A stretch of 57,820 nt of DNA, taken from the NCBI GenBank assembly GCA_017446055.1, contig JAFSRQ010000066.1, positions 1-57,820 of the forward strand, written 5' to 3'. A model generated the notes under the pieces. The model ran no database searches. It was not told the DNA's origin and worked only from the letters and a program-made list of their open reading frames with translations. The first letter of the stretch is position 1; the number at the start of each line of letters is the position of its first letter. A program made the position numbers and the translations under genes. Shown here in pieces: positions 14,555 to 46,289 of this stretch. The stretch comes from Synergistaceae bacterium. GTDB lineage: Bacteria > Synergistota > Synergistia > Synergistales > Aminobacteriaceae.

Positions 14555-17500
14555 CTAACGTCTGCGGAGTAGGGCGAAGAATAACAATGCTGACATTGCG
14601 GAGAATGGCGTGGATGAACTGCAAGTGCTATTGGAGCTGTTGATGTCGGTGTCTGGGTCTGGTTCGGGTTCTGGGTCTGGCTCTGGTGGTTCTGATATGG
14701 TGATGGTGAGCTGCTTTGTCGCCGAACGTGTTCCAGATGATGCCTTCACGGTGAAGGTTGACCTTCCTGCGCTTGTGGGAGTCCCTGAGATTGTCCCGGA
14801 GCTGCTCAGGCTGAGTCCGGCAGGAAGAGTCCCTGATGACACAGACCAAGTCGCCCCCGAAAGATTAGCCGCAAGTGTCGCCAAGTATGACGCGCCTACT
14901 GTCCCGGAAGGAAGGCTAGCTGTCGTGATACTGAGGTCTTCCGCAGGCGGAGCGGTTATCACGAGCGTTAAGGTTTCACTGTCAACCCCCGCACTATTCC
15001 TAGCAGTTACTGTAACACTGTATCTTCCTGCTGCTGTGGGAGTGCCTGAGATTGTGCCGCTGCTGTGAGTCAGGCCGCCGGGGAGTCCTGTTACAGTCCA
15101 CGTTATAGGAGTTGAGCCGTTTGCTGTGAGCGTCTGCGAGTACTGAGTGCCGACTGTGCCGCTTGCGAGGCTCGTTATCGTGATTGTGGGGGCTGTCGCG
15201 GACGGTGTCGGGCCATCATATGATGATACGGTGATGTTGAACTCCTTTGTCGCAGAACGTGCGCCGGATACAACCCTTATTGTGAATGCTGATGTGCCTG
15301 TGCTACCCGGAGTCCCTGATATTCTCCCGGTTATGGGATTGAGTGTGAGTCCGGCAGGAAGATTACCTGATGCCACAGACCATATTGCGCTCGCGGCATT
15401 ACACGCCAGAGTGGCCGAGTATGACGCGCCTGCTGTCCCGGAAGGAAGGCTTGCTGTCGTTATCGTGAGCGTACCGGGGGTAGGAGGTGTAGGTGTTGGG
15501 TCTATTGGGTCTCCGTCTATCACAAGCTGGAGATTCTTGGACACTGTAGCCTTACTGTTTGAGGCTGATATGCTTACGGTGTAAGTCCCGGGGGTTGTCG
15601 GAGTGCCTGAGATTCTGCCGCTGCTTTGAGTCAGGCCGTCAGGAAGCCCCGTTACCGTCCATGTTATTGGCCTTGTTCCTATTGTCGCGAGAAACTGCGA
15701 ATACTGAGTGCCGACAGCCCCGGAAGGAAGGCTCGCTGTTATGATTGACGGTGAGATTTGCGTAGCCTTTCTCGCAACGGGGAACGCCTTTATGCTGGCA
15801 GTGAGTGATACTTCCCCGTTTGTCGTCTTATAGCTGCTTCCGTTCTTCCAGTCTGTAGCTTCCGTGATTGTTTCAGCACGGGCAAACCAGCTTCGTCCGG
15901 CTTTGTATGCTGACAAGTTGACAATGTACGAGTTATCTTTTGCCGCCATTGTAAGATAGCCGCTGTATGCTTTTGATGAGGAAAGTTTTACCATGACAGC
16001 AAAATATTCGCCCGATCTCACGTCTATCGGATTGTCCAGCTCTACAGTGTGGTATCCTACATAATCAAGCGTCCCGGTTTTGACGGGGCTGCCCTGCGGA
16101 ACTCCCGGTCCATAATTAGGAAAAGTCATCCCCAGCTTGTTCACGTACACTTCATAATGCATGTCAGGAGCTGCCGTGCTGAACGACACTTCATTGAGCG
16201 ACTCTGTGTTTTCAGCCTTGAAGATGTTTGCTGACCAATGATCCTTTATAGGTTCTGTTGCCGCTGCGGTGTCATGCGCGTAGGGCGTGTTGCTTACGGC
16301 ACTGTCATCTGCCACGAACACCGAACAATCGTGCATTTCCTGCTCATACGAAATCCAGAAATAGCCGTCCCCGTTGCTTGCTTTAGGCCAATCATCGCCC
16401 CATGAGTTTTTGGCGAGCCATGCACCGTTAGCACTGGGCTTTGTCGTACCGTCAACGATGGATCTCGTCTTGAAGTTGTCGCTCGAATAATTGTCATCCC
16501 ACCCGACAAGGATTACAGCATGTCCGCCGTCATTAGGTGTCATTTCTTGATTCAGCACATCCGGCGCGTAGTAATTGATGCCTTTTTCATATCTGGAAAA
16601 GTGTTTGTACCCAATCCTTACGGCACCGTAGTCCATGATGAGATGCTTTATTCGGTCGCTCTGGCTTCTTAGGTCACTCTCGTAAGCCCTGTTACTTCGC
16701 AGAGCAGTATTGTACGTGAGGTTATACGCTGCCTTTAGCCTGAGCGGATGCCGGAAATCTTCAGGATAAATTACGTTCGCAGGAATTTTTGAGGCAACAT
16801 AATCTGCGACATTCTTATCTGTTTCCTCTACACTTTTGCCTTCAGTACCGCGAACCCCCTCGTAAGGAAGATCTGCTTCTGAAGCAGTTCCAATCCTAGA
16901 CAAAAAGGTTATAGCTTTTTCACTAGTTCCTCCCTGACTGAGTACATATTTTTGGGAATCCAGTTCTCTGGAATAGCCCTGTCTGGAATCCTTGTAGGTG
17001 TACCACGCTAGATGAAGCTCAGAAAGGTCAGGTGCCTCGCTGCCAAAACCCTGCGCTACATAGCTGGCCTCCATTGCTCCGATTGCCGCGAAAGCCCAGC
17101 ATGTCCCGTAAGGACTCTGATCACCGACGCGAAGAGACCTGTGGTCATTCCCGGGTTCCCTGGGGTCATATTTGGGGAGTGTGTAGTCGTAATGAGCCTG
17201 CGGAAGATTACTGTTCAGCAGCGCATAATCAACAGGGCTGGGAACATACCCGAAAACCGCGCTTTCAGACTGATCGCCCGATATATAGCGCAGGTACTCG
17301 TCAGAATACGGTGCTGTGTCAACTGAGACGGGCTCCCACTCGCAGATAAATCCGCTGGGGTAAAGCTCATGCCATCCCTCAAATTTTCCGTCTTCCGTTA
17401 TTTGCAGGTAGACTTCTTCAGGGAGCTTCCGTTTCACACGCCGTATAAGCTCAGACTGGCCGCCTGCTGTAGACCTGATTATGCTTATGTTGTAGACATC

Positions 17501-19309
17501 ATGAACGTCATCTTCAGCTATCTCATCCGTGAAGTCAGAGCCGTCATCCCAGTGCCACACCTCATTGCTGTCCCGGCCTCCTCCAAGCCAGTAGCCTCCT
17601 GACGAGCTGTCCCCGGCCAATTTTGACATCCTTATGAGTTCCCGCGCAAGACTCTTCACATCATTTGACGCAAGAACAGCAAGATGACCGCCCAGAGAAT
17701 CACAGAAAGATTTAGCTTCCTCCCAGCTCACAGCGCGGTTGTATGCCCGGTAAACATGGCCGTTAAGCGCAAGGGAGACAAAATCCTCTTCCCCTATTAT
17801 TACGTCCATGTTCACGCCGGAATGCCCGGTGCTGTACGAGTAGCGCACTCTCAAGGGTGAGAGTCCGAAACTGGCAGTGCCTCCGCTGTACGTTGTCTCA
17901 ACTTCCGCGCCGCTCTCGTCAAAGCCCTGAACGCTTGAAGCAATGACATTCCCCATGCCGGAGGATGACATATACCCGCTGAAGTCCATCGTGAATGGGT
18001 ATTCATTTCCGTCATGCCTGACAATGTCGAGTCCGCTGATAATCTGCGGCCCGGTTATAACGTGCATGTTCAGGAAATTCACCGTTACTACTCCGTAAGG
18101 CGTGCTCACACTTAGGGACTTGGGGGCGTTGTCCGAGCTCAGGAAAATATTGCCGCTGAGATCAAGTTCCGCAAGGCTGTTGTTCTGAATCTCAAGGTCA
18201 TAGAGATTCCTGTTGCCGCTGAGATTTATTTCTGTGATGTTATTGTTGCCACACCTGAGATGCTGAAGGGAGTAATTCCTGCTGACATCAAGCCCCGAAA
18301 GCCTGTTGCTGTTTGCATAGAGCATCACAAGATTCACCAGCTGGCTCACGTCAATTTCTTCGAGCTGGTTGTTGCTGAAGTTGACCGTCTTAAGCCCCGC
18401 GCAGCCCTGAAGATTGACATTCACAAGCCTGTTGTCGTGGCAGTCAAGATTCCAGAGCTTGCCGCACCCGCTCACGTCAAGAGAGACAAGAAGATTCGTG
18501 TTGCACTTCAGGTCGTACAGCTCCGAATGCCCGCTCACATCAAGCCCCCTCAGCCTGTTGCCCTGAACGTCAATTGTCCAGAGATTCGTACAGCCGTCAA
18601 CGTTAATGCTCGTCAGCAAATTGTTGGGACTGTGAATGTGATTGAGGGACGTACAACCTGAGGCGTTGAGAGATACGATATTGTTCATGTTGCAGTCAAA
18701 GGTCGTCAGGTATATATGATTGCTCACATCAAGCGTCCTGAGATCATTTGCCCAGCAGGCCAGCCTCTTGAGCTTCATGTTCCCGCTGAGGTCAAGCTCT
18801 TCAAGAGTGTTGATACAGCAGGAAAGCTCCTCAAGGTTCGTGCAGCCAGTAACATCAAGCCTCGTGAGCGCGTTCGTGTCGCAGTTCAGGTACACAAGCT
18901 CCGTTAATCCGCTGACATTGAGAGAAGTGATGCTGCAGTCCTTGCAGTTCAGATACCGCAGCTTCTTGTTCCTGCTGACATCGAGTTCTGTAAGAAGCGG
19001 ATTGTTGCGGCAGTCTATCGATACCAGCTCTGTCAGGTACTCAACGCCCTTCATTGATTCCATTCTGATTGTTCCTTTGTTACCCGTGAATCCGGGCTTG
19101 TTAAAGATGTCGACAGCAGCAATCTCTTCATCACTCAGCCAACCGTCTTTGTTGCCGTATTCATCAGGCTTATCACAATCTGCTTGGATGTAGTACCTGA
19201 ACAGGTCATCAGGAAAATTATCTTTGTTGATTTCCACGATATTCACAGCCGCCCAAGCTCCCGAAGCCATAACGCACACGAGCATTACGGCGCATAATAT
19301 TTTCCGCAT
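14555..19309 (-). CDS. Giant surface protease: LRR, C-type lectin, papain-like, Ig-like repeats
   Basis: ATG 19309 begins a clean signal peptide (MRKILCAVMLVCVMASGAWA); the longer frame to 19381 is unlikely. The protein is 1584 aa. The order is an EF-hand-like start (DKPDEYGNKDGWLSDEE), about 14 leucine-rich repeats of the LDVSGCTNL type to around residue 400, a C-type-lectin-like domain (about 515-657), and a C1/papain-family peptidase. The peptidase has GTCWAF with Cys737, GGHAVILVGW with His930 and AKNSWG with Asn968. Next come a lectin-like beta domain, four He_PIG Ig-like repeats (SGTPT signatures), a DPEPEPD spacer and a degenerate Synergist-CTERM tail (Cys, hydrophobic stretch, RRR). 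The catalytic set is complete, so an active surface cysteine protease is expected. Confidence 0.9.
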   Translation of the reverse strand: MRKILCAVMLVCVMASGAWAAVNIVEINKDNFPDDLFRYYIQADCDKPDEYGNKDGWLSDEEIAAVDIFNKPGFTGNKGTIRMESMKGVEYLTELVSIDCRNNPLLTELDVSRNKKLRYLNCKDCSITSLNVSGLTELVYLNCDTNALTRLDVTGCTNLEELSCCINTLEELDLSGNMKLKRLACWANDLRTLDVSNHIYLTTFDCNMNNIVSLNASGCTSLNHIHSPNNLLTSINVDGCTNLWTIDVQGNRLRGLDVSGHSELYDLKCNTNLLVSLDVSGCGKLWNLDCHDNRLVNVNLQGCAGLKTVNFSNNQLEEIDVSQLVNLVMLYANSNRLSGLDVSRNYSLQHLRCGNNNITEINLSGNRNLYDLEIQNNSLAELDLSGNIFLSSDNAPKSLSVSTPYGVVTVNFLNMHVITGPQIISGLDIVRHDGNEYPFTMDFSGYMSSSGMGNVIASSVQGFDESGAEVETTYSGGTASFGLSPLRVRYSYSTGHSGVNMDVIIGEEDFVSLALNGHVYRAYNRAVSWEEAKSFCDSLGGHLAVLASNDVKSLARELIRMSKLAGDSSSGGYWLGGGRDSNEVWHWDDGSDFTDEIAEDDVHDVYNISIIRSTAGGQSELIRRVKRKLPEEVYLQITEDGKFEGWHELYPSGFICEWEPVSVDTAPYSDEYLRYISGDQSESAVFGYVPSPVDYALLNSNLPQAHYDYTLPKYDPREPGNDHRSLRVGDQSPYGTCWAFAAIGAMEASYVAQGFGSEAPDLSELHLAWYTYKDSRQGYSRELDSQKYVLSQGGTSEKAITFLSRIGTASEADLPYEGVRGTEGKSVEETDKNVADYVASKIPANVIYPEDFRHPLRLKAAYNLTYNTALRSNRAYESDLRSQSDRIKHLIMDYGAVRIGYKHFSRYEKGINYYAPDVLNQEMTPNDGGHAVILVGWDDNYSSDNFKTRSIVDGTTKPSANGAWLAKNSWGDDWPKASNGDGYFWISYEQEMHDCSVFVADDSAVSNTPYAHDTAAATEPIKDHWSANIFKAENTESLNEVSFSTAAPDMHYEVYVNKLGMTFPNYGPGVPQGSPVKTGTLDYVGYHTVELDNPIDVRSGEYFAVMVKLSSSKAYSGYLTMAAKDNSYIVNLSAYKAGRSWFARAETITEATDWKNGSSYKTTNGEVSLTASIKAFPVARKATQISPSIITASLPSGAVGTQYSQFLATIGTRPITWTVTGLPDGLTQSSGRISGTPTTPGTYTVSISASNSKATVSKNLQLVIDGDPIDPTPTPPTPGTLTITTASLPSGTAGASYSATLACNAASAIWSVASGNLPAGLTLNPITGRISGTPGSTGTSAFTIRVVSGARSATKEFNITVSSYDGPTPSATAPTITITSLASGTVGTQYSQTLTANGSTPITWTVTGLPGGLTHSSGTISGTPTAAGRYSVTVTARNSAGVDSETLTLVITAPPAEDLSITTASLPSGTVGASYLATLAANLSGATWSVSSGTLPAGLSLSSSGTISGTPTSAGRSTFTVKASSGTRSATKQLTITISEPPEPDPEPEPDPDTDINSSNSTCSSSTPFSAMSALLFFALLRRR

Positions 19310-19643
19310 GAGATATATTCCCCTTTCCAGAAATGTTTTGCCTTGCCTGAAGACCCGGTAATGAGTCACAGACAGTAACATTGCGCTTTCTTCCGGGGAT
19401 GGATTTATGGAGGGTGTTCCTTTTTGCGTGAATGATGGTTAAGCGGATGGGATAATTCCGAATCAGTGTCAGGAAATTTCAGACAATAAGAGCTAATCTG
19501 CTTTGCTCAATTATGGCGGCAAATTGCATTTTGTCAACCCTCTTTGTGCTGAATTTATGCTGAGATACTGAGGATGTAGTGTAAATGTTATAATAGCAAA
19601 ATCCATTTGGTTTTTCCACAGAATTTATTGCGCGCTGGGAGTG
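19310..19643. other. Intergenic region with no gene seen
   Basis: Between the protease gene (minus) and the antitoxin remnant (plus). The minus-strand AAGGGGAATATATCTC before 19309 holds the protease ribosome site. An extended -10 element lies at 19586-19594. I see no further supported gene or structured RNA. Confidence 0.5.
19586..19594 (+). promoter_or_regulatory. Extended -10 promoter element upstream of the TA remnant and galK
   Basis: TGTTATAAT matches the TGnTATAAT extended -10 consensus. No good -35 box is present. It could drive the remnant and galK. Confidence 0.45.
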
Positions 19644-43431: not shown

Positions 43432-43436
43432 GACAG

Positions 43437-43472
43437 AAAAAAGCAGGACGGGGATTTTGCTCCCTGCCCTGC
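43437..43472 (-). terminator. Terminator of the peptide/InlB-like transcript
   Basis: On the minus strand GCAGGGCAGGGA pairs with TCCCCGTCCTGC (one mismatch, one wobble), followed by six T at 43442-43437. It lies 21 nt after the 41-residue peptide gene. Confidence 0.85.
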
Positions 43473-43493
43473 CTGTTCTGTACCGGGATGAAG

Positions 43494-43619
43494 CTAGTAC
43501 ACGCTTGAGCTGCCGACTACCATGGGCGGAGTTCTGATTTCGCCGCTGGTGGTGATCACGTCTTCGTCCTGGAAGCTGATTACCTCAACTTCAGGTGTCT
43601 CGTAGGATTTCTTCTCCAT
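43494..43619 (-). CDS. Small peptide (41 aa) of the xxEVxxISFxxEDVITTSG type
   Basis: ATG 43619 has AAAGGAGG 8 nt upstream, one of the best ribosome sites in the window. The product starts MEKKSYETPEVEVISF, contains DEDVITTSGE and ends VVGSSSVY. It follows the InlB-like gene by 24 nt and precedes a strong terminator, so the two form a transcript. Peptides of this general shape (K-rich start, Y-x-x-P-E-x-E-V-I-x-F, then D-V-I-T-T-S) occur in gut Firmicutes, to my recollection without known function. No signal peptide or modification enzyme is visible beside it. Confidence 0.75.
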   Translation of the reverse strand: MEKKSYETPEVEVISFQDEDVITTSGEIRTPPMVVGSSSVY

Positions 43620-43643
43620 AGGTTAATCCTCCTTTCTTGCTTG

Positions 43644-46289
43644 CTAGTTGTTGGGACTCGTGTTGTAGGTAACTGCTGCCTGGCCGTATTTGTACAGAGC
43701 GATTACAGCCTGCTTGAGTTTGCTGAGGGTGTAGCCGTCCGTTGCCTTGTTGTCGTCGCCGCTTTGTGAAAGAACGCTGTGAACGTATGAGTAGCCTGAC
43801 ACTGAAACTGTGCAAGTCTCTGCCTCATCGCCAGTGCCAGCTGTAAGTACGATTCCCTTTGCTGTGCCGAGAAGGTGCGCAGGGATGCCGCCGGTATTAA
43901 TGGTGTAGACGTTATCGGCATTCTTCACGGGATTGTTTGTGAGTGCTGTACCGTCTATTGTGGCTGTAACGGTATCCGCCTGTCCTGTGTAAGGAACGTT
44001 AAGCTCAATCTCTACTTCGTCATCGAGGAGGAGCGAGTATGTTACTTCGCCGAAGCTGGAGTTCTCTGCTTTCGAGCGTGTTATCGTGATTTTGTTGGTA
44101 CTGAGTGTATTGGCTGTCACATCATTAACAGTGATTTCCGCGTCATCTGATTTCGTTATGGCTTTGTGCGCGTTAGTCTCCTCATCACCGATAGTCCAGC
44201 CGTGATAGTCTGCGAGGCTCTGCTGTGCGTAATAGCCGTAATCCTTGATGGCTTTCGCGAGTGCTATCAAGTTAGCCGATGCACCGCTTCCATCTGCCAG
44301 AACCGCATCCAGGTACTTAACAGCCGAGAAACTATCAGTATCGCCTTCTACAGTGAAAGGTTCAGGGCCATCGCCTACATTAGCACCTTGTGCATTGGCC
44401 GCTGTGTAATTAAGTGTGGCGGTGATTTCGTCTGCCATCTGCACGGAGGTTATGCGGCAAGTGAACCTGTGGAACGTGTCAGTGTAATCGGGATGCGTAT
44501 ATTCGGCATGATCTACCGTATCGCTGACTGTTACCGTCTGTTCCTCATCACCAATCTTGAAGGTTACCGAGCAGTCCTCAAAGCCTGTCTCCGGGATGTA
44601 CGCATAGAAGTCCACGCCGATTAGTCCGCCAAGCGCGAGGGAGTGTATGGTCTTGTCGTCTTTCTTGAAGAACTCGGGCTTATTCTCAGAAGGAGTGTAT
44701 GCTGTTTTCGTGCTGGTAGTGGCATAAGTTGCGGTATATGTGCGGTCAGCTACTACTTCACCATTGTTGATTGTTACGGTCGTTTGTGCCTCCTCAGAGC
44801 CTCCCTCAAGCTTCCAGCCCGCGAAGGTGTAGCCATCGTTTGGTGTGGGTGTAGGCAGGGTGAATGTTGCTGACTCAACGGTGAATGTCGCGGTATATTT
44901 TTTCTCGTCACTGCCGTCCTTAGTGAAGCTTCCCGTCTCAGAGAGTGTTCCATTATCGCCAAGGTTCAGCGTGATGGTGTAGTCTGTTGCTGTCCATGCC
45001 GCTGTGAGGGTTACGCCAGCCATTAATTGAGCCTCTGTTAATGTTGTAGCGTTATCATCAGTAGCAAAGACGAAATCTGTATTGTCTAACTGCCACACTA
45101 CAGAAGAGTAATAATCTCTGGTTGGGTCTTCTGGTTTGGTGGCTATCGTTGCGCTCTTGCCATATTCCACTTCAACCTCTACCGTCTTAGTGGACTCAGT
45201 CTCCCACTTGCCTTCACCTGCATTGAACGTTACAGTGTAGCTAGTCTTGCCGTTGGTATACGTCTTGTCGCCGATAGTTACCTTCCCGCCTGCGAGTGTC
45301 AGCGTCCCGGCCGTAATGCTCTGTGCGGTGAGTGTGCCGACATTGTCCCCTTCGGTACTCTGGGAGTATATGGTGAGAGTCTTGCCGGTTGCGGTGATGG
45401 ATTTGTCGGTGAGAGTCAGCTTTGCGCCATCAAGAAGAATTATGCTTATGTTATCAGCGGTTAGTGCAAGGTCAGCATTGAGTGTTACCTCGCCATACAC
45501 AACGTAAGCCGCTTTACCAAACTCACTTGTTGTTGCCGTGAGTAACTCATAGTCATCGGGTAAAGCCGCATCGTTTTCACCGTTTTTGTAGCTGCCGAAG
45601 ACCGCCGTGTAGGTTGCGTTTGCGTTGTTATCTGACTTGGGGAATTTGATTGCGTCTTCGTCCAAGATTGTAGCATCCTCGCCTGTCTTCCAGCCCAAAA
45701 ACGTGGCATACTCTTTCGTGAGCGTGGGCAGGGAAAATTCGGTGGTCTTGTGCGTGTACGTAACCGTAGCAGAGTTGTCCGTAACAGTTACTGTACTATC
45801 TCCTGCTGTTATGGAAGCATTATCGGGAACATTATTGAGTGTGAGCGTGTACGTCCAGTTGGCATAGTAGGCTGTACCATCTGTTGCATCAGTGGGAATG
45901 TAAGTCTCACTATTAGTTGCCTCAACTTTGTTCGTTAACGCGGCTTCTGTATACCAGCCCTCTAACGCGGTGGCATTGTCATTTGTGGTTGTGGGGAATT
46001 TGTAGTTATTTGTAACACTATCTGAGAAAGTCAGCTTGTACTCTGAGCCTGGGGTTGTTTCCTCAATCTTGGGATCGGTTTCACTACCATTACTAGTTGT
46101 GATAGTGCCGCCGTTCGTGTGGAGAGTGATAGTTACAGCCTGTGCCTGTGGGACAATGAACGAGAGAAGGAATACTGCGATCAGTAGCGCGAGAAGTCTT
46201 AGCTTGCCTGTCAGAAGGCCACAACTAAGGCTGTGAGCTGTGAGCTGTGAGCTGTGAGCAGTTATAGCAAACTTTTGCCATAATGTCAA
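43644..46289 (-). CDS. Secreted InlB-repeat surface protein, possibly phase-variable
   Basis: 881 codons if read from TTG 46289. A signal peptide (LRLLALLIAVFLLSFIVPQAQA) follows the repeat-encoded TAHSSQLTAHS. The mature part is beta-rich, with InlB B/Listeria-Bacteroides repeat units (YTITLNLGDNGTLSETGSFT..., FAGWKLEGG; FNAGEGKWETES) and a C-terminal domain ending LKQAVIALYKYGQAAVTY as in gut Firmicutes surface proteins. It uses more A/T-ending and Thr/Asn codons than its neighbours, hinting at acquisition. The well-placed ATG at 46281 is out of frame because of the GCTGTGA repeat; TTG 46289 has its AAAGGA only 1 nt away. Confidence 0.8.
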   Translation of the reverse strand: MTLWQKFAITAHSSQLTAHSLSCGLLTGKLRLLALLIAVFLLSFIVPQAQAVTITLHTNGGTITTSNGSETDPKIEETTPGSEYKLTFSDSVTNNYKFPTTTNDNATALEGWYTEAALTNKVEATNSETYIPTDATDGTAYYANWTYTLTLNNVPDNASITAGDSTVTVTDNSATVTYTHKTTEFSLPTLTKEYATFLGWKTGEDATILDEDAIKFPKSDNNANATYTAVFGSYKNGENDAALPDDYELLTATTSEFGKAAYVVYGEVTLNADLALTADNISIILLDGAKLTLTDKSITATGKTLTIYSQSTEGDNVGTLTAQSITAGTLTLAGGKVTIGDKTYTNGKTSYTVTFNAGEGKWETESTKTVEVEVEYGKSATIATKPEDPTRDYYSSVVWQLDNTDFVFATDDNATTLTEAQLMAGVTLTAAWTATDYTITLNLGDNGTLSETGSFTKDGSDEKKYTATFTVESATFTLPTPTPNDGYTFAGWKLEGGSEEAQTTVTINNGEVVADRTYTATYATTSTKTAYTPSENKPEFFKKDDKTIHSLALGGLIGVDFYAYIPETGFEDCSVTFKIGDEEQTVTVSDTVDHAEYTHPDYTDTFHRFTCRITSVQMADEITATLNYTAANAQGANVGDGPEPFTVEGDTDSFSAVKYLDAVLADGSGASANLIALAKAIKDYGYYAQQSLADYHGWTIGDEETNAHKAITKSDDAEITVNDVTANTLSTNKITITRSKAENSSFGEVTYSLLLDDEVEIELNVPYTGQADTVTATIDGTALTNNPVKNADNVYTINTGGIPAHLLGTAKGIVLTAGTGDEAETCTVSVSGYSYVHSVLSQSGDDNKATDGYTLSKLKQAVIALYKYGQAAVTYNTSPNN
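46230..46257 (-). repeat. Heptanucleotide repeat GCTGTGA x4 in the signal-peptide region
   Basis: Four perfect 7-bp units (plus-strand GCTGTGA; coding strand TCACAGC) lie in the first codons of the InlB-like gene, followed by a partial GC. Each unit gained or lost shifts the frame by one. Losing one unit would put ATG 46281 in frame with the signal peptide and mature protein. Confidence 0.92.

Follow-up and report, generated by a model that had tools for sequence, protein, structure and literature searches.

The locus lies in a window of 57,820 nt (the whole stretch of DNA that was analyzed) and consists of a short minus-strand gene encoding MEKKSYETPEVEVISFQDEDVITTSGEIRTPPMVVGSSSVY, the gene of a large secreted protein on its 5' side, and a likely terminator on its 3' side, with the following features:

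43494-43619, minus strand: gene of the 41-aa proposed precursor peptide (P0001), with an ATG start
43628-43635, minus strand: Shine-Dalgarno site AAAGGAGG, 8 nt 5' of the ATG, read from the sequence
43572-43604, minus strand: putative leader motif for RRE recognition (YETPEVEVISF, residues 6-16), supported by conservation and by a beta strand that a structure model of the peptide with PqqD predicts
43545-43565, minus strand: EDVITTS core, residues 19-25, with Ser25 (43545-43547) as the proposed modification site
43497-43544, minus strand: variable tail, residues 26-41, the divergence of which correlates with that of the neighboring C-terminal domain (CTD)
~43436-43475, minus strand: hairpin and T run between convergent genes, a likely terminator, from folding and shuffles
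43644-46289, minus strand: partner gene, encoding an 881-aa secreted surface protein with a hydrophobic, signal-peptide-like N-terminal segment and List_Bact_rpt/InlB repeats
43647-44633, minus strand: CTD common to the partner proteins, from a profile A2 match (E = 2e-85) and alignments

The initial annotation pointed to a strongly translated 41-residue peptide gene at this site, closely following the surface-protein gene and ending before a terminator. The ATG-initiated reading frame, the AAAGGAGG site and the 24-nt gap between the stop codon of the surface-protein gene and the ATG of the peptide gene were all found, and strong translation would be expected from the Shine-Dalgarno site. The GC-rich hairpin 3' of the gene has a folding energy of -28.7 kcal/mol (z = -4.4), matched by none of 200 shuffled sequences, and, together with the T run, predicts termination here, as had been suggested; a simple terminator scan did not list this hairpin. 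Searches of Pfam, NCBIfam and PHROGs with the 41-aa peptide returned no matches, and no signal peptide was seen in its sequence.

The peptide belongs to a family with nine paralogues in the window genome (the eight others detected with E-values from 1.9e-9 to 8.6e-4) and, as identified by a profile search, 52 members in 13 of the 43 genomes of the genus, so that the homologues on which the initial annotation had made its proposal depend do exist. Other families of the order, represented by 24 genomes, yielded no members in a single-sequence search. Throughout the family, a conserved N-terminal region, YxxPExEVIxFxxEDVITTS, is followed by a variable tail rich in Thr, Pro, Gly and Ser, the last residue being Tyr or Phe for 24 of the 43 genus members aligned; a short precursor with a conserved leader-like N-terminus and a variable tail is the layout of RRE-dependent RiPPs. 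The pN/pS ratio of the conserved core is 0.38, with synonymous sites near saturation, indicating constraint on the core. Given the eight paralogues in the same genome, the 52 members in the genus and this ratio, the gene is far beyond chance expectation, and we consider it confirmed as a real gene at the sequence level.

Outside the genus, a DNA-pattern search detected at least 119 matching stretches in named genomes. The 80 that were read come almost exclusively from rumen or gut Clostridia, with a few from Coriobacteriia, consistent with the previously noted resemblance to small peptides of gut Firmicutes. Ruminococcus flavefaciens ND2009 alone contains 14 peptide matches. Because the search pattern, E[VI]IxFxxED[VI]I, imposes the E, I, F, ED and I residues, only the conservation of Tyr6 and Ser25 is informative among the Firmicutes. 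The leader Tyr is present in 43 of the 43 genus members and 69 of the 79 Firmicutes members, and the position of Ser25 is occupied by Ser in 40/43 and 68/69 of the aligned sequences, respectively. A Pro at +3 from the Tyr occurs in 28/43 genus and 36/69 Firmicutes members; the exact YxxP sequence is thus found in only 65% and 52% of the members, which we counted against the RiPP-like reading developed below. The contig of L198 is labelled Alistipes senegalensis and encodes a peptide near-identical to a Ruminococcus one (L188), which suggests mis-binning.

The association of the peptide with surface proteins, proposed in the initial annotation, recurs across the genus: by genome coordinates, 41 of the 52 peptides are encoded directly behind a CTD gene. 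An upstream gene on the same strand is present for 36 members; in 33 of these cases, its product ends in the ~294-aa CTD, and in the three exceptions, more than 170 nt separate the peptide from its neighbor. Conversely, a peptide follows 39 of the 60 CTD matches, the enzyme cassette described below follows 5, and 16 have neither behind them, another observation counted against the RiPP-like reading. In the Firmicutes, 43 of 79 peptide genes lie immediately behind a CTD protein; in L164, L171, L189, L206 and L210, the secreted protein encoded ahead of the peptide instead ends in another module, approximately VYxRxYxxxxDxxGxxxTxYG. The InlB repeats, originally singled out as the hallmark of the partner, are real in the neighboring protein, but were rejected as the constant element: the N-terminal parts of the partners vary and only the CTD is constant, so the repeats are incidental. 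The CTD matched no Pfam family and had no convincing relative in the PDB by sequence, and its best fold matches, with low fold scores, are Ig-like chains. When pairs are compared within a genome, the peptide tails diverge in step with their CTDs (r = 0.265; none of 2000 permutations as high), and the leaders do so more weakly (r = 0.111; 80 of 2000 as high); joint duplication of the pairs could give part of this signal. No confident docking was obtained in a stop read-through model of the window CTD and peptide, which was likewise counted against the RiPP-like reading.

The context of other family members suggests which enzymes act on these peptides. In two genomes, the peptides are encoded directly 5' of an HPr-kinase-like P-loop protein (hereafter, the kinase), a PqqD protein, an S26-type peptidase and an NTP_transf_5 protein; one or more peptides immediately precede this cassette in L068, L069, L117 and L123, with a tandem run of precursors in L069. 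In L117 (1464-1705; genome G062), two divergent tandem peptides 5' of the kinase, e.g. AFNKEIMINTDSSEQESGQGGGD, lack the EDVITTS core, so their modification site may differ. The cassette is normally present once per genome; that of the window genome is located on another contig (L113, 8290-11164), headed by a CTD protein, so that this decisive partner could not be seen from the window. On the same contig (C137), a tandem repeat at L113 9268-9726 (209 bp, 2.2 copies, 92%) separates the kinase gene from the S26 gene and contains duplicates of the C-terminus of the former and the N-terminus of the latter, either in reality or as an assembly effect. Cassette genes are found within 8 kb of many Firmicutes peptide genes, and the kinase is present in 39 of the 48 genomes with pattern matches; matches in Desulfobulbaceae and Verrucomicrobia look like chance, both genomes being devoid of the kinase. 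In the Firmicutes cassettes, a gene for an ABC exporter lies between those of the peptidase and the NTP_transf_5 protein. The cassette of the window genome lacks this exporter, and the best homologue elsewhere in that genome is only 27% identical, which, with regard to export, we counted against the RiPP-like reading.

The PqqD protein matches PF05402 (E = 1e-12), has an RRE fold like that of TbiB1 and occurs together with the precursor; the NTP_transf_5 protein matches PF14907 (E = 1e-40; 140 bits vs the curated cut-off of 31), and its homologues retain the DxD motif. The S26 proteins contain S43, H83 and G97-D98-N99 in 23 of 23 sequences, as in Ser-His S26 peptidases, with profile matches below the curated cut-offs. 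The assignment of the kinase, also counted against the RiPP-like reading, combines a weak match to Hpr_kinase_C in one homologue (E = 5e-4, below the cut-off) with four residues, H82, K103, D123 and D124, found in 25-26 of 26 sequences. These correspond to the His-Lys-Asp-Asp set of lasso-tailoring HPrK-like kinases, compared here with the motif as stated in PMC9266682, where the set is reported to be essential.

The peptide and the kinase are tightly linked in their distribution. In the genus, 14 of the 43 genomes carry one copy of the kinase gene and 13 carry the peptide, all 13 being among the 14 (Fisher p = 3.8e-10, kinship ignored); 29 of the 30 peptide-negative genomes lack the kinase, and in the exception, G016, the contig ends just 5' of the kinase. 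On a serS tree, the cassette changes state independently 6-7 times, with supported branches requiring six of these changes. Peptide and kinase agree in 5-6 of the 6 supported independent pairs and are opposed in none (sign test p = 0.03-0.06). Among 60 Ruminococcus genomes, 30 have both, none the kinase only, 5 the peptide only and 25 neither (Fisher p = 5.5e-12); the 5 peptide-only genomes, in one of which the match is weak, were counted against the RiPP-like reading. The CTD is present in 11 of the 43 genus genomes, all of them kinase-positive, and two genomes, G024 and G062, combine peptide members and the cassette with no CTD at all.

Together, these observations favor, at a probability of about 70%, a RiPP-like, RRE-dependent precursor that is phosphorylated and probably sugar-capped at Ser25 and used with the partner surface protein; its chemistry, where it is cut and what it would do on the surface protein are what we infer from sequence comparison and modeling. 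The modified-peptide precursor mentioned among several options in the initial annotation agrees with this reading, given the conserved leader and the PqqD/HPrK-like/S26/NTP_transf_5 cassette. We propose that the peptide is bound by the RRE protein, phosphorylated and capped at Ser25, and freed of its leader, in view of the conservation of the four kinase residues, the S26 Ser, His and GDN residues, and the NTP_transf_5 DxD. The PqqD protein would hold each of the cell's peptides by its YxxPExEVIxF strand, YxxP being a known recognition sequence of RRE proteins (PMC12710340). The HPr-kinase-like enzyme would then phosphorylate the near-invariant Ser25, as the paeninodin kinase does with a Ser of its precursor (PMC9266682), and the NTP_transf_5 enzyme would cap the phosphate, probably with a hexose, an addition to phospho-Ser also proposed for PsmN of the pseudomycoidin system (PMC9266682). 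The S26 peptidase would take off the leader, and, in the weakest step of the scheme, the tagged tail would act with, or attached to, the surface protein translated from the same mRNA.

Structure prediction is consistent with the first of these steps. For a natural peptide-PqqD stop read-through (L218), AlphaFold yielded an RRE fold with a strand at leader residues 10-14, a model of moderate confidence (first block pLDDT 76, pTM 0.52) that comes without an interface score and for which the alignment left out peptide rows; its best PDB matches are the lasso B1-leader complexes 5v1v and 6jx3. The scheme can be extended to a system for surface-protein maturation or display, in which one cassette decorates dispersed peptides, each of which would be fixed to the CTD of the protein encoded upstream as a phospho-sugar tag, an anchor or an exchangeable ligand, an elaboration that we put forward tentatively.

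Among the alternatives, the one that keeps most of this scheme is a secreted RiPP, a signal or an antimicrobial, that undergoes the same RiPP-like chemistry but merely shares a transcript with the surface protein. The exporter-like ABC transporter of the Firmicutes cassettes, the tandem precursors of L069 and those Firmicutes peptides whose upstream secreted protein ends in another module fit this possibility, which we nevertheless regard as rather unlikely because, in the genus, the CTD never occurs without the kinase, the CTD pairing recurs in both the genus and the Clostridia, and no dedicated exporter was found in the window genome. That the peptide is an unmodified partner of the CTD (a chaperone, inhibitor or sorting helper) and its link to the cassette indirect could account for the frequent CTD-gene adjacency in the genus and the Firmicutes, for the joint divergence of tail and CTD, and for the lack of a signal peptide in the window peptide. 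This explanation appears improbable in view of the genomes with peptide and cassette but no CTD, the members directly 5' of the kinase, the concentration of conservation in the N-terminal strand and EDVITTS rather than in the tail, and the lack of docking in the CTD-peptide model; the leader, immunity and sorting-helper roles considered in the initial annotation gained no specific support.

A lasso peptide precursor, suggested by the YxxP leader, discrete PqqD, kinase and nucleotidyltransferase that occur in lasso clusters (PMC7533575, PMC9266682) and by the resemblance of the L218 model to lasso B1-leader complexes, is very improbable: the B2 protease (Transglut_core3) was found in none of the 43 genus genomes, with control genomes positive, and no cyclase-sized gene was seen among the cassette genes. 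Judged by gene size, no extra enzyme-sized gene intervenes between the cassette genes in L113, L118-L120, L068 and L069. We reject a lasso assignment in the genus, barring a protease and a cyclase of unrelated families that would take over these roles. A spurious or decaying reading frame, which its short length and the lack of family-model matches might suggest, is refuted by the ribosome-binding site, the nine copies, the purifying selection and the distant homologues, leaving this option a negligible chance.

The closest known systems are paeninodin (PadeA/K) and pseudomycoidin (PsmA/K/N), which share with the present one a short precursor with a Y-x-x-P-type leader, a discrete PqqD (B1), an HPr-kinase-like enzyme with His-Lys-Asp-Asp and a nucleotidyltransferase, as well as, in the Firmicutes cassettes, an ABC exporter. 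Unlike these systems, B2 is absent here, no cyclase gene was seen, and an S26 Ser-His peptidase is present instead; the proposed target Ser is internal (Ser25) rather than C-terminal; and up to 14 dispersed precursors are encoded per genome, most of them behind a surface-protein gene. Comparison of single proteins with NCBIfam HprK_rel_A, HprK_rel_B and SynChlorMet ScmC/ScmD revealed weak kinase and PqqD similarity, far below the curated cut-offs. The same kinds of genes, for a PqqD protein, an S24/S26 peptidase, an HprK-like protein and a 57-aa peptide, are found in Butyrivibrio fibrisolvens pNP243 (L274, 8605-10628). This peptide, KKAYVKPELKASMNGTLEGVYAC..., is similar in its KKxYxKPxL start but Cys-rich and devoid of EDVITTS, and of the two Asp residues, the first is missing from the pNP243 kinase; the peptide possibly represents a sister family. 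We found no description of the motif or the gene set in the open-access literature, a scope outside which most subscription journals fall.

RiPP enzymes usually act on precursors encoded next to them, and the product is a small molecule that is secreted. In the rumen and gut bacteria considered here, as many as 14 scattered precursors, most of which are associated with a surface protein, appear to share one or a few cassettes. If correct, the proposed scheme would join peptide natural-product chemistry to surface-protein biology, account for many unannotated genes of 30-50 aa beside surface proteins, and provide a testable substrate for the uncharacterized NTP_transf_5 family. The window also encodes, at 14555-19381 on the minus strand, a 1608-aa surface protein with papain-like protease, lectin-like, LRR, PKD and Ig-like domains.
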